Assembly: GCF_000337815.1 (NCBI RefSeq)
Contig: NZ_AOLN01000006.1
Location: 62,001-126,000, forward strand
DNA length: 64,000 nt
Reading direction: 5' to 3'
From: Haloferax mucosum ATCC BAA-1512
GTDB taxonomy: Archaea > Halobacteriota > Halobacteria > Halobacteriales > Haloferacaceae
Positions 41,435 through 47,353 of the stretch are shown here, piece after piece; position 1 is the first letter of the stretch; every line of letters begins with the position of its first letter. A model generated the notes under the pieces. That model did not search any database. It had not been told where the DNA came from and was given only the letters and a program-made list of their open reading frames with translations. A program made the position numbers and the translations under genes.

Positions 41435-42577
41435 ATGGATATTGCTGATATCGCCACTCCTGATTTCATCGAGGTCGACGCTAACGAGCGATTAGGCAAG
41501 GTCCGCTCCATCTTCGAGCGGGAAAACCCGAAAGCCATCATCGTCCAGAATGACGGCGAGTACGCGGGCGTCATCGGTGAGAAGCAACTCATCAACTCGC
41601 ACGTCGAGGACAACACGAAAGCGTCGGCGCTTACCCAGTCCGTCCCCAAAATAGACCGACACGAGAACGTGCGCGAGGTCGCACGCATGCTCGTCGAAGG
41701 CAACACGAAGGTTGCGCCTGTCTACGAGGGCGAAAAACAGTACGGCATCATCACGCAGGATGCCATTCTCAAAGCGGTCTTAGAGAACCTCGACGCGCTG
41801 ACCGTCGAGCAAATCTACACCGACGACGTGGTCACCATCGGCGAGCGCGACCGACTCGGACAGGCCATCAACCGACTCCGAGAACACAGTATCTCGCGGC
41901 TCCCCGTCGTCGATAGACAAAACCGCCTCGCCGGCATCCTGACAACCTACGACCTCGTCGAGTTCATGGTGCGCGACGAGGGCCGACAGGGGAAACAGGA
42001 CCGCCGCGGCGATACCGACCGGATGCTCGACCTTCCGGTGTACGACCTGATGACCAGTCCAGCGCGGACGGCGACGCCCAGCGAGAGCGTCCGTGATGCG
42101 GTCGCGCGCATGTTCGAAGACAACATTGCTGGTCTCGTCGTCACGCCCGAAGACGACGACGGCGAAGTGCTCGGCGTCATGACGAAGACCGACGTGCTCC
42201 GCGCGCTCACCTACACCGAAGAAGAACAGATGGACGTGCAAATCACGAACGTCGGCCTGATCGAGACGCTCACCCGCGCCGACATCGTCTCGGCCATCAC
42301 CGAGGTGGCGGACAAATACCAGCGCATGAACGTCCACCACGCCCACGTTCGCTTCCACGAACACAAAGAGAAACTCCGAGGCACGCCGCTCATCCAGTGT
42401 CAGATTCGACTCCGGACGAGCCACGGCCAACTGGCCGGAAGCGGTGAGGGCTACGGTGCCGAACACGCGTTCCACGTCGCGCTCGACAAACTCGAACGCA
42501 ACGTGCTCGAAGTCAAGGGCTTCGAAGCCGACGAGCGCTACCGCGGCCAACTCCTGCGCAAACTGAACGAACTGTAA
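41435..42577 (+). CDS. Four-CBS-domain protein fused to an HPF/S30EA-like domain
   Basis: The 380-residue protein has four CBS motifs in two pairs: DFIEVDANERLGKVRSIF, VAPVYEGEKQYGIITQDAIL, RDRLGQAINRLREHSISRLPVV and SVRDAVARMFEDNIAGLVV. CBS pairs bind adenine nucleotides and act as energy sensors. The C-terminal 100 residues match the hibernation-factor fold (HAHVRFHEHKEKLRGTPLIQ, GSGEGYGAEHAFHVALDKLE). The pairing suggests nucleotide-controlled binding to ribosomes. The start MDIADIATPDF is the family start; a longer in-frame upstream reading is repetitive and not used. Confidence 0.88.
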   Translation: MDIADIATPDFIEVDANERLGKVRSIFERENPKAIIVQNDGEYAGVIGEKQLINSHVEDNTKASALTQSVPKIDRHENVREVARMLVEGNTKVAPVYEGEKQYGIITQDAILKAVLENLDALTVEQIYTDDVVTIGERDRLGQAINRLREHSISRLPVVDRQNRLAGILTTYDLVEFMVRDEGRQGKQDRRGDTDRMLDLPVYDLMTSPARTATPSESVRDAVARMFEDNIAGLVVTPEDDDGEVLGVMTKTDVLRALTYTEEEQMDVQITNVGLIETLTRADIVSAITEVADKYQRMNVHHAHVRFHEHKEKLRGTPLIQCQIRLRTSHGQLAGSGEGYGAEHAFHVALDKLERNVLEVKGFEADERYRGQLLRKLNEL

Positions 42578-42758: not shown

Positions 42759-43448
42759 TTAAATTTCAGTGTCGGTCAGCCCACGGTCCGTGATTTTGAA
42801 CGTCGCCGTCTCACCGGCGGGTTTCGCGCGGTGTTTTTCCAGCGTGGCGCGACGGTTGCCCCCGCGGAAGCGGTCCACCCGGAGCACCGTTCCGGTCCAG
42901 TGTTCGAGCGTGTGGCCGCCGAGCGCGCGCGTCCGGTCGCTTTCGGGGTCTGAGTACACCTGGTTCGTCAAGACGACCGCGAGGTCGTGTTTGCGGGCGA
43001 GCGAAAGGAGGTGTGTAACCTGTCTGGCGACCCGTCGAAGCGCCTCGCCGCCGTCGCCGTCGGCGGTTCGTTCGAGTCGGTAGAAACCGGTCGCGGAGTC
43101 GAGGACGATGAGGTCCGCGTTCTCGGCGAACTCAGCCGCGTCGCGGACGGCCTGTTCTTGGTCTTCGAAATCGTACGCCTCGCTGATCATCAGCCGCGAG
43201 GTCACAGACTCCACGTCCTCGGGGGCGACCGCCTCGGCGAGTTGCTGGAAGCGGTCCACCGATAGCCCCTCGGTGTCGATGTAGACGACGGTCCCGCTGT
43301 CGGCGGCGACGCGAACCGCGGCCGAGAGCGCGATGTTTGTCTTTCCGGCCGCGGACGGACCGTACACCTGCGTCACGGTGCCGCGTTCGAACCCGCCTTC
43401 GAGGAGGTCGTCGAGCGTGGAACACCCGGTGGAGACTGACTCTGTCAC
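42759..43448 (-). CDS. radB: DNA repair and recombination protein RadB
   Basis: The 229-residue RecA-fold protein is a RadA paralog that assists homologous recombination in archaea. It lacks the N-terminal domain of RadA. The core has Walker A GPSAAGKTN near residue 30, Walker B LIVLDSATGFYRLE near 110, and QVTHLLSLARKHDLAVVLTNQVYSDPESD, then LGGHTLEHWTGTVLRVD. The family starts at TESVSTGCSTLDDLLEGGFERGTV, so a GTG at 43448 is used; an ATG at 43532 would give an unlikely extension. A T-rich TATA-like TCTTTTTCGG on the minus strand near 43475 supports it. Confidence 0.9.
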   Translation of the reverse strand: MTESVSTGCSTLDDLLEGGFERGTVTQVYGPSAAGKTNIALSAAVRVAADSGTVVYIDTEGLSVDRFQQLAEAVAPEDVESVTSRLMISEAYDFEDQEQAVRDAAEFAENADLIVLDSATGFYRLERTADGDGGEALRRVARQVTHLLSLARKHDLAVVLTNQVYSDPESDRTRALGGHTLEHWTGTVLRVDRFRGGNRRATLEKHRAKPAGETATFKITDRGLTDTEI

Positions 43449-43523
43449 GTCCGATGGTGAGCACCACCGGCCGAAAAAGACCTCGGTCGTCCCGCCGGCG
43501 ACCGAGTCATCGACGCACGACTC

Positions 43524-43530
43524 TTTATTC
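43524..43530 (+). promoter_or_regulatory. TATA-like box of the RuvC-like gene
   Basis: TTTATTC is centred 27 bases before the GTG at 43554, supporting that start and a leaderless message. Confidence 0.5.
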
Positions 43531-43553
43531 ATCACCGTCACCAACTTCAGGTC

Positions 43554-44285
43554 GTGATAGTCGTCGCCACCGCCGATTTCGAACTCTACCACGAAGCGGT
43601 TGACGAGTTACGGAGCCGAGGCGTCTCTTTTACTACCGTCGAACCGGGCGACCCACTTCCCGAACACGCCCGCGTGCTCATCACTGGCCCGGACGACGAA
43701 ATCGAAGCGAATATCGAACGCGTGACGGCGACCGGTGACGACGCTCGCCGCGCCGTTGACGAAGCGCTCACGACGCTCCGCGGTGGTGGGGGCCGAACAA
43801 TCGTCGGCGTCGATCCCGGAATCAGACCGGGTATCGCCGTCCTCTCGGGTGAGACCGTCGTCGCGGCGTTCCACGTCCCGCTCACGGACGCAGTGGAGGT
43901 CATCCGCCGAGAGATAGAAGACGCCGTCAACCCGGTCGTCCGCATCGGCGACGGGGCGCGGATACAGGGCGCGAAGTTGATAAACGACCTCGACGGCGTC
44001 GCGGTCGAACTCGTTGACGAGACGGGGACGACGCCGTATCTCGGGTCGGGCGCACGCGGCATGGGCGACGTGCTCGCGGCGGTGAACATCGCCCAAATGA
44101 GCGGCGAAGATATCGACTCGCGCGAGATAGAGCCGACGGCGGGCGAACTCCAGCGTATCAAGGACCGCTCGCGCGAGGCGTCCGAGGAGAGCCGCAGTAT
44201 CGACGACGAACTCGCCCGGCGAGTCGCAAGCGGCGAGTTGAGCATCGAAGAAGCGCTGGCCGAACATCGCGCCCGAGGGGAGTAG
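43554..44285 (+). CDS. RNase H-fold (RuvC-like) protein, function unknown
   Basis: This 243-residue protein begins with a strand-rich N-terminal domain of about 80 residues (FELYHEAVDELRSRGVSFTTVE). A second domain opens GGGGRTIVGVDPGIRPGIAVL. The DPGxxPGIAVL segment is the first strand of RuvC/YqgF-like RNase H folds, with the catalytic Asp. VRIGDGARIQGAKLINDLDG follows, and DETGTTPYLGSGARGMGDVLAAVNIA ends the fold with a further Asp. It is conserved in haloarchaea without an assigned function. The divergent, closely spaced radB hints at a role in recombination. Confidence 0.72.
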   Translation: MIVVATADFELYHEAVDELRSRGVSFTTVEPGDPLPEHARVLITGPDDEIEANIERVTATGDDARRAVDEALTTLRGGGGRTIVGVDPGIRPGIAVLSGETVVAAFHVPLTDAVEVIRREIEDAVNPVVRIGDGARIQGAKLINDLDGVAVELVDETGTTPYLGSGARGMGDVLAAVNIAQMSGEDIDSREIEPTAGELQRIKDRSREASEESRSIDDELARRVASGELSIEEALAEHRARGE

Positions 44286-45877: not shown

Positions 45878-47353
45878 TCACCGAGGGTCGTCGTCCGACG
45901 CGACCGCGGCGACTGCCCGTCGCATGACTTCCCGGACGGCGAGTCCTGTCTTTGTCGCCACTTCGAGCGCGTCGTCGTACTCGGCGCTCCGGTCGTAGAC
46001 GACGCCGTCGGCGTCGCTCGCCACTTTGACCGTCACGTCGTACTCCTCGCCGTCGATATCGAGCGTTGCCGTCTCGAACTCGCGGCGGGCGGTCCAGCGG
46101 TGGCCCGCGCCGTGTTCGCGGATTCCGAGCGTGCCGGTTTCGACCGCGAGACGATAGGCGACCCGTTCGACGTCTTCGGGTCTGACGATGACTTTGACGA
46201 GATGCCCCGGACGGGATTTCTTCATCGTCGCCGGGAGAATCGTCACGTCTCGTGCGCCCGCGTCTTTCAGCGTCGCTTGGAGACTGCCGAGAATCTCGGG
46301 CGTCGCGTCGTCGAGGTTCGTCTCCAAGACGGTGATTTCGTCGCGGACGAGCCGAGAACCGCCGTCGCCGACGATGGCTCGGAGCACGTTCGGGTGGTCC
46401 GGGAAGTCCCACCCGCCGGCCCCGTAGCCGGATGCCGTGACCGATACCGACGGGAGGGTTTCGACGCCGTCAGCGACGTGCGCGAGGATGGCCGCGCCAG
46501 TCGGCGTGAGCAGTTCGGCCTCGACGGGACCACCGCGAATCGACCAGTCGGCCCGTTCGACGACGTTGAGCACTGCCGGGGCCGGGATGGGGTAGGTCCC
46601 GTGGCTCATCGCCGCTTCGCCGTCGCCGACTGCGATGGGTGCGGTCACGACGCGGTCAACGTCGAGGTCCGAAAGGAGGAGACACACGCCGACGACATCG
46701 GCGATGGCGTCGTCGGCACCGACTTCGTGGAAGTGCGTCTCGTCGAGGTCAGTCCCGTGAACGTCCGCTTCGGCTTCGCCGAGAATGCGGAAGATAGCGG
46801 TCGCGTCCTCGACGACGCCCGCGGGGAGGTCCATCGACTCGACGAGTTCGACCACTTCGGGGTAGGTTCGGTGCGGGCCGTGACCCTCGGCGTGAGCGTG
46901 GTCGTGGTGGCTGTGGTCGTGGTGATGGTCGGAGTGGTCGTGATGATGATTGTGACCCGAGTGACCGCGTTCGCCCCCGTGTCCGGCGGCCAAATCACCG
47001 CGCAGTCGATGCGTCCGCGACTCGTCGGCTCCGCGATTCTGGTCCTCGTGGACAGCCGCTCCGTCACCGTCGTCCTCGGTGTCGCTTTTGTCACCATCTG
47101 ACTGCTCTTCTGTGGTTCTGTGGTCGTCGTCGTGGCCTTCACCACGCGGGTCGCCGCCGTCGGTATCCACGAGGAGAACGTCCACGCTGGTCGCCATGAT
47201 GCCGTTTTTGTCCACCTCGTGAATTCGGTACGTCACGTCGAGTGCGTCTTCGACGGGCGCGAGAACGGACGGGTCGGCACCGGCGGCGACGAGCGCGCCG
47301 AGAAGCATGTCGCCGCTGGCACCCATCCGGCCGTCGAACGTGAGCAGTCGCAT
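45878..47353 (-). CDS. larC: LarC, nickel-pincer cofactor insertion protein
   Basis: The 491-residue protein matches LarC, which inserts nickel into the pyridinium nucleotide cofactor of lactate racemase. It begins MRLLTFDGRMGASGDMLLGAL, with the family middle THFHEVGADDAIADVVG and SHGTYPIPAPAVL, and ends in the CTP-binding half (TNLDDATPEILG, LPATMKKSRPGHLVKVIV). It carries an insertion of about 90 residues, with 16 or more His in residues 125-165, likely a nickel store. LarA, LarB and LarE genes are not nearby. Single uninterrupted frame, unlike the frameshifted larC of Lactobacillus. Confidence 0.92.
   Translation of the reverse strand: MRLLTFDGRMGASGDMLLGALVAAGADPSVLAPVEDALDVTYRIHEVDKNGIMATSVDVLLVDTDGGDPRGEGHDDDHRTTEEQSDGDKSDTEDDGDGAAVHEDQNRGADESRTHRLRGDLAAGHGGERGHSGHNHHHDHSDHHHDHSHHDHAHAEGHGPHRTYPEVVELVESMDLPAGVVEDATAIFRILGEAEADVHGTDLDETHFHEVGADDAIADVVGVCLLLSDLDVDRVVTAPIAVGDGEAAMSHGTYPIPAPAVLNVVERADWSIRGGPVEAELLTPTGAAILAHVADGVETLPSVSVTASGYGAGGWDFPDHPNVLRAIVGDGGSRLVRDEITVLETNLDDATPEILGSLQATLKDAGARDVTILPATMKKSRPGHLVKVIVRPEDVERVAYRLAVETGTLGIREHGAGHRWTARREFETATLDIDGEEYDVTVKVASDADGVVYDRSAEYDDALEVATKTGLAVREVMRRAVAAVASDDDPR

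Follow-up and report, generated by a model that had tools for sequence, protein, structure and literature searches.

The window analysed here, a stretch of 64,000 nucleotides of Haloferax mucosum ATCC BAA-1512 (NZ_AOLN01000006.1, positions 62,001 to 126,000), carries next to radB the gene of an unstudied, RuvC/YqgF-like protein, which probably cuts DNA or RNA. A nuclease of recombination or replication repair is the most likely reading, and RNA processing is its main rival. In relatives of the gene outside haloarchaea, the start-codon pattern, as judged from sequence comparison, suggests that a deliberately weak initiation codon has been conserved. This pattern is a more surprising result than the gene pair and is directly testable.

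The 243-residue product has the RuvC-type first-strand motif for which the initial annotation had singled it out, VGVDPGIRPGIAVL, at residues 84–97. The reading frame is not a chance one, since homologs were found in 120/146 genomes of the order. As the annotation had also stated, the GTG start of this gene (43554) and the GTG start of radB (43448) lie 105 bases apart on opposite strands. The naming of the neighbour was borne out by the NCBIfam model NF006861, which it matches with 421 bits (cut-off 278). According to the alignment with other RadB proteins, radB encodes 229 amino acids from this GTG; the start of a longer ORF at 43592 was rejected as a mechanical artefact. The features of the locus are collected in Table 1.

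Table 1. Features of the RuvC/YqgF-like gene and its surroundings (positions in the window)
Feature	Position	Strand	Basis
CBS-domain protein, HVO_2384 ortholog by position	41435..42577	+	ORF and neighbourhood comparison
radB, RecA-family recombination mediator, divergent, GTG start	42759..43448	-	NCBIfam and RadB alignment
TATA-like tttatt, 25–30 bases 5′ of GTG	43524..43529	+	read from sequence
CDS of RuvC/YqgF-like protein, 243 aa	43554..44285	+	ORF translation, homologs, alignment
Start codon GTG of RuvC/YqgF-like gene	43554..43556	+	haloarchaeal alignment
Rossmann-like domain, residues 1–78, closest to PurE (Z 9.1)	43554..43787	+	predicted model
RNase H-fold domain, RuvC/RuvX/Tex branch, residues 79–190	43788..44123	+	predicted model and profile comparison
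Asp87, first acid, strand 1 (VDPG)	43812..43814	+	invariant
Glu156, second acid, after strand 5 (VDETGTT, cf. DER-TT of YqgF)	44019..44021	+	invariant; aligned with YqgF DE motif
Asp172, third acid, C-terminal helix (DxxAAxxIA)	44067..44069	+	invariant
Conserved C-terminal helices, residues 196–242	44139..44279	+	alignment and model
larC, convergent neighbour on the far side; kept in the block outside haloarchaea	45878..47353	-	neighbourhood comparison

All 42 alignable named haloarchaeal homologs start with GTG (two more were not alignable). This start was rejected as a peculiarity of the gene, because GTG is also the radB start in 39 of the 40 haloarchaeal loci that could be aligned. The CBS neighbour has ATG in 27/27 aligned haloarchaeal sequences (one not aligned) and larC in 9/9 (22 not aligned). 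There is no Shine-Dalgarno (SD) site before the window GTG, and GGAG or GAGG at positions −15 to −4 was found in just 8/72 haloarchaeal homologs. The rarity of such sites suggests that the haloarchaeal gene is probably leaderless, and the position of the TATA-like element would fit a leaderless transcript.

In Haloferax volcanii, LarC is HVO_2381 (PMC8305020) and RadB is HVO_2383 (PMC7776575), and based on this gene order we infer that HVO_2382 is the ortholog of the window protein. HVO_2382 has been named as an uncharacterized protein of interest (PMC10470531), and the portions of the HVO_2384 and RadB literature available to us do not mention the gene.

The AlphaFold2 model of the window protein (mean pLDDT 83.7, pTM only 0.51) supports the RuvC/YqgF-type RNase H fold proposed initially. 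Residues 79–190 of the model resembled Tex (Z 11.7), the IS621 recombinase (11.2), Spt6 (10.8), RuvX (10.4), RuvC with a Holliday junction (10.4), MOC1 (9.5) and Escherichia coli YqgF (9.1), the matches to Tex, RuvX, RuvC and MOC1 thus lying at Z 9–12. Foldseek alone gave no PDB matches at E ≤ 0.001, and sequence-profile searches of the PDB yielded nothing significant.

Among 34 haloarchaeal representatives (<80% identity), D87, D133, E152, D155, E156 and D172 were invariant. In an alignment of 32 rows covering every lineage, namely haloarchaea and several further archaeal classes, D87, E152, E156 and D172 were retained in 32/32, D155 was nearly invariant and D133 was variable. D133 was rejected as a catalytic residue, because its conservation is lost outside haloarchaea. 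The three acidic residues whose conservation the initial annotation had proposed to check, here D87, E156 and D172, are therefore kept in the homologs, and they agree with the acid pattern of the superfamily, with Asp on strand 1, an acid on strand 4 or 5 (here after strand 5) and Asp in the C-terminal helix. On the predicted model, the domain falls in the RuvC/YqgF/Tex branch of the RNase H-like superfamily. The Asp-Glu-Asp metal site is intact in the alignment and may perform metal-dependent cleavage.

In the profile search against RuvC and YqgF families proposed in the initial annotation, every Pfam and NCBIfam model remained below its cut-off for the window protein, no RuvC model appeared in these scans, RuvC-type sequence similarity was not significant, and PF03652 had no match at E ≤ 10 in 32 family members. 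The best sub-threshold model was DUF460 (PF04312), which scored 17.7 bits where 28 would be required.

The similarity to YqgF/RuvX (PF03652) includes the RNase H fold (Z 9–10.4 to the window model), the strand-1 DxG, the DE-(R/T)-TT motif after strand 5 and D..AA in the last helix. In the profile comparison with YqgF, the strand-1 Asp and DE-TT were in register (pairwise E 6e-05, probability 65). The window protein differs in its extra N- and C-terminal parts, its length (243 vs ~140 residues) and its absence from some genera. With DUF460/COG2433, archaeal RuvC-like proteins of ~650 aa, it shares the strand-1 GxDPG. The DUF460 model was matched by 30/32 family members (best E 9.6e-05), and the hhalign alignment spanned 38 columns around strand 1 only. 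DUF460 carries its second acid on strand 4; in the window family this acid follows strand 5, and the position nearest to the strand-4 Asp varies (D/H/N/S/R) among lineages. The two architectures also differ, and certain genomes carry both proteins. Since DUF460 aligns around strand 1 only and the YqgF motifs are shared, the protein belongs to a family of its own within the branch that also holds YqgF, Tex and DUF460. Three DUF460-like proteins (L117, L122, L123) of ~415–510 aa start near the RNase H domain, without the N-terminal half of the 650-aa forms.

The YqgF-type domain of Tex/Spt6 is the best structural match and likewise has its second acid after strand 5, whereas Tex and Spt6 are large multidomain proteins and Tex is described as missing the third acid (PMC3985635). 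RuvC, MOC1 and poxvirus resolvases share the fold (Z 9.5–10.4), but none of them gave a significant match by sequence, and their strand-4 acid is not conserved in the window family. A superfamily survey of 2014 (PMC3985635) covers DUF460 and remarks on the displaced second acid of YqgF and Tex; its available part does not name the window family.

Within the order, homologs occur in 107/122 good-quality genomes and 46/56 genera, and the gene is missing from at least eight sampled genomes of one genus (g2) within the window's own family. A search of 294 genomes of the phylum revealed 22 full-length homologs outside the order and one broken copy, together with weak matches to the strand-1 motif of longer, DUF460-looking proteins. 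In follow-up searches, the gene was found in 4/4 genomes of one class, 7/7 of another and 10/11 of a third, and in families f40 (11/17 genomes), f44 (31/34 genomes) and f46 of a fourth class. A scan of named genomes, covering close relatives only, gave 45 loci, of which 44 carry haloarchaeal titles and the remaining one is titled only 'Euryarchaeota archaeon'. The family-profile scan of viral contigs showed no relative, and the plasmid collection contained one haloarchaeal ortholog, annotated as 'hypothetical protein' and adjoining radB.

One homolog with a broken frame (L071) and two partial ones (L074 and L075) were excluded from the haloarchaeal alignment. Also left out, without repair, were partial copies in genomes G468, G522 and G533, together with a second fragment, in G507. 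The broken reading frames of L136–L138, from one f18 genome, and of the Haloarcula rara copy L071 may be assembly errors or decay and were neither mended nor counted.

The conserved link to radB expected in the initial annotation holds for haloarchaea and for whole groups outside them, but not for families f28, f40, f44 and f46, in which radB lies elsewhere. A divergent radB was present in 39/44 named haloarchaeal loci and absent from the other five; the start-to-start distance was 72–173 bases in 34 of the 39 and ~0.9–1.1 kb in five. Outside haloarchaea, 13/20 fetched loci had a divergent radB (~34–45% identity), confirmed with NCBIfam for two examples, and all gene-holding genomes of f25 (4/4), f18 (7/7), f31 (4/4) and f23 (1/1) had this arrangement. 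In f28, fen1 immediately precedes the gene in the same orientation in 5/5 loci (L108–L112). In f40, f44 and f46, neither radB nor fen1 adjoins the gene, which has other flanking genes. The block CBS–radB–RuvC/YqgF-like gene–larC–cdc48 recurs partly in other classes. According to a personal communication quoted in PMC3820547, the CBS protein HVO_2384 binds both RadA and RadB.

The radB model TIGR02237 was above its cut-off in 31/32 genomes tested, including those without the RuvC/YqgF-like gene. In seven haloarchaeal genomes lacking the gene (L220–L226), radB was intact in 7/7 and no remnant of the gene was visible beside it. RadB is thus independent of the RuvC/YqgF-like protein, and the protein is dispensable, since some haloarchaea without it retain radB. 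The head-to-head pairing is ancient but not obligatory. A CBS homolog was also present in six of these seven genomes.

Based on the above results, we suggest, with about even confidence, that the two-domain protein is a structure-specific nuclease for branched nucleic-acid intermediates, which it would trim or cut in RadA/RadB-dependent recombination or replication repair. Its substrate would be branched DNA or RNA–DNA, cleaved with the help of metal at the Asp-Glu-Asp site, and its pathway would be repair. The observed part of this reading consists of the sequence family, the predicted fold, the invariant acids and the conserved gene pairing, and the radB/fen1 gene order is circumstantial for the role in recombination. 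Among characterised proteins, those nearest in motif, YqgF/RuvX, are not DNA resolvases throughout, which weighs against this reading.

It is less probable that the protein is an RNA-processing nuclease, matching bacterial YqgF in function with rRNA, tRNA or mRNA as its targets, and that the radB block reflects conserved housekeeping genes, not a pathway. The active-site motifs DxG, DE-TT and DxxAA are indeed those of YqgF, the YqgF of Deinococcus radiodurans is described as an RNA 5′-3′ exo/endonuclease with Holliday-junction activity absent (PMC9601230), and the block also includes the non-recombination genes cdc48 and larC. However, two different repair genes, radB and fen1, adjoin the gene in different lineages, and the gene is missing from whole genera with RadB intact, unlike what is expected of an essential rRNA processor.

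RuvC-type resolution needs dimerisation. It appears improbable that the protein resolves Holliday junctions as a true counterpart of RuvC, in a role redundant with those of Hjc and Hef, even though junction-bound RuvC and MOC1 are among the structural matches and radB is divergent. The second conserved acid stands after strand 5 and not on strand 4. Archaeal recombination intermediates are handled by Hjc and Hef, and H. volcanii cannot lose both (PMC7776575), so a third full resolvase does not substitute for them in this species. More doubtful still is a non-catalytic scaffold binding nucleic acid or RadB in the manner of the Tex/Spt6 YqgF-type domain: Tex is the top structural match and Spt6 is also among the matches, but all three acids are invariant, whereas Tex is without the third (PMC3985635). 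If the preferred reading, a nuclease of recombination or replication repair, is true, a RuvC/YqgF-type candidate beside radB and fen1 adds an enzyme to the archaeal recombination pathway, and it can be tested directly in H. volcanii through the presumed ortholog HVO_2382.

For the start codons outside haloarchaea, each gene was anchored on the conserved TxDF motif and traced back to the upstream stop; 67 homologs were used, the broken f18 gene L136 being excluded. The codon ~7 bases past a GGAGG-type site was AGG in 45/67, AUA/AUU/AUC in 16/67 and AUG in 6/67. Hence 61/67 homologs had a non-AUG codon at normal SD spacing, while the window gene itself has GTG and no SD site. AGG was found in f44 (29/30), f40 (9/9), f31 (4/4), f23 (1/1) and f25 (2/4), and codons of the isoleucine type in f46 (ATC, 8/8), f18 (ATT/ATC/ATA, 6/6) and f25 (ATA, 2/4). 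The SD-spaced codon was ATG in 1/30 f44 genes, and the f28 genes have ATG three codons 5′ of a conserved AGG (5/5) and were counted as ATG. In the f23 gene, GTG and TTG also occur upstream of AGG. The spacing was mostly 7 bases, with 8 in f31 and 5–6 where the site reads GGGGG. A stop codon immediately precedes AGG in 22/30 f44 genes, and 49/67 genes have no ATG, GTG or TTG from the upstream stop to the first conserved strand.

Across 44 rows (f44, f40, f31 and f23), AGG showed 0, 1 (to ATG) and 0 changes at its first, second and third base. Over the same rows, the third positions of codons 2–18 changed 5–18 times each, and sites −18 to −13 changed 11–17 times. AGA or CGN never replaced AGG. 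An ordinary arginine codon would drift in this way, and the lack of such drift indicates that AGG is kept for its nucleotides rather than for encoding arginine. At codon 3, 25/44 rows have AAA and 17/44 have AAG, so the frame is already translated by this codon. Codon periodicity begins at AGG and is absent upstream (39 rows of f44 and f40). With a similar alignment, canonical starts were found in 101/103 neighbouring genes of f44, f40, f46 and f28. Across 14 f44/f40 loci, AGG stood 7 bases past GGAGG at 16 of 237 sites, a figure that roughly corresponds to the target genes with a few additional ones. In a tree of 94 sequences, built by a quick method with long branches flagged, eight multi-row families each form one side of a branch; on this tree the start-codon class changed at least five times, at least two of the changes being between AUG and non-AUG.

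Taken from these alignments, AGG is rather likely to be a genuine, selected archaeal start codon, kept across at least three classes, swapped mainly with AUA/AUU/AUC and rarely with AUG, which would hold a recombination-linked nuclease low. We consider it unlikely that AGG is not the initiator and that translation proceeds from an Ile codon (ATA/ATC/ATT) four codons later or via a frameshift from an upstream frame. The later codon is AUA/AUC/AUU in 43/44 rows, such codons are known as weak starts, and many f44 rows carry AAAGG at a distance of 9 bases 5′ of it. Against this, the SD core is conserved 7 bases before AGG but 19 before the later Ile codon, which is replaced by GTA in one row; codon 3 encodes lysine (AAA/AAG) in 42/44 rows; and at SD+7, one f44 row has ATG, f46 has ATC and f18 has ATT/ATA/ATC. 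The upstream sites have neither codon periodicity nor a conserved start, and on these grounds we rejected the idea that the AGG families arose from an upstream frame with a programmed frameshift.

Initiation at AGG is reportedly very weak in E. coli, a result of 2017 associated with the name of Hecht, and we know of no natural prokaryotic AGG start. Among the matches listed in searches of an open-access library, none was a prokaryotic AGG initiator, and those listed for AGG-start phrases were eukaryotic or viral only. The closest known cases are the weak starts behind strong SD sites of the bacterial infC, pcnB, ccpN and cvfC1, in which non-AUG codons are kept across species in AUA/AUU forms (PMC13009471); the present case differs in being archaeal and in having AGG, with a middle-base mismatch to AUG, as the commonest form. 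In Staphylococcus aureus, conserved AUA/AUU starts behind extended SD sites are reported to give about a tenth of the AUG yield (PMC13009471). In archaea, aIF1 is described as counteracting non-AUG starts (PMC6237735).

With AGG or AUA/AUU/AUC behind a strong SD site, the yield outside haloarchaea would be low and the protein probably scarce, and a weak start may fit a nuclease that needs scarcity. If the reading of AGG as a selected start holds, archaea use this codon as an initiator under selection, and gene callers would truncate or miss such genes. Loci with AGG or AUA/AUU/AUC behind a strong SD site include L151–L168, L189–L207 and L124–L143.
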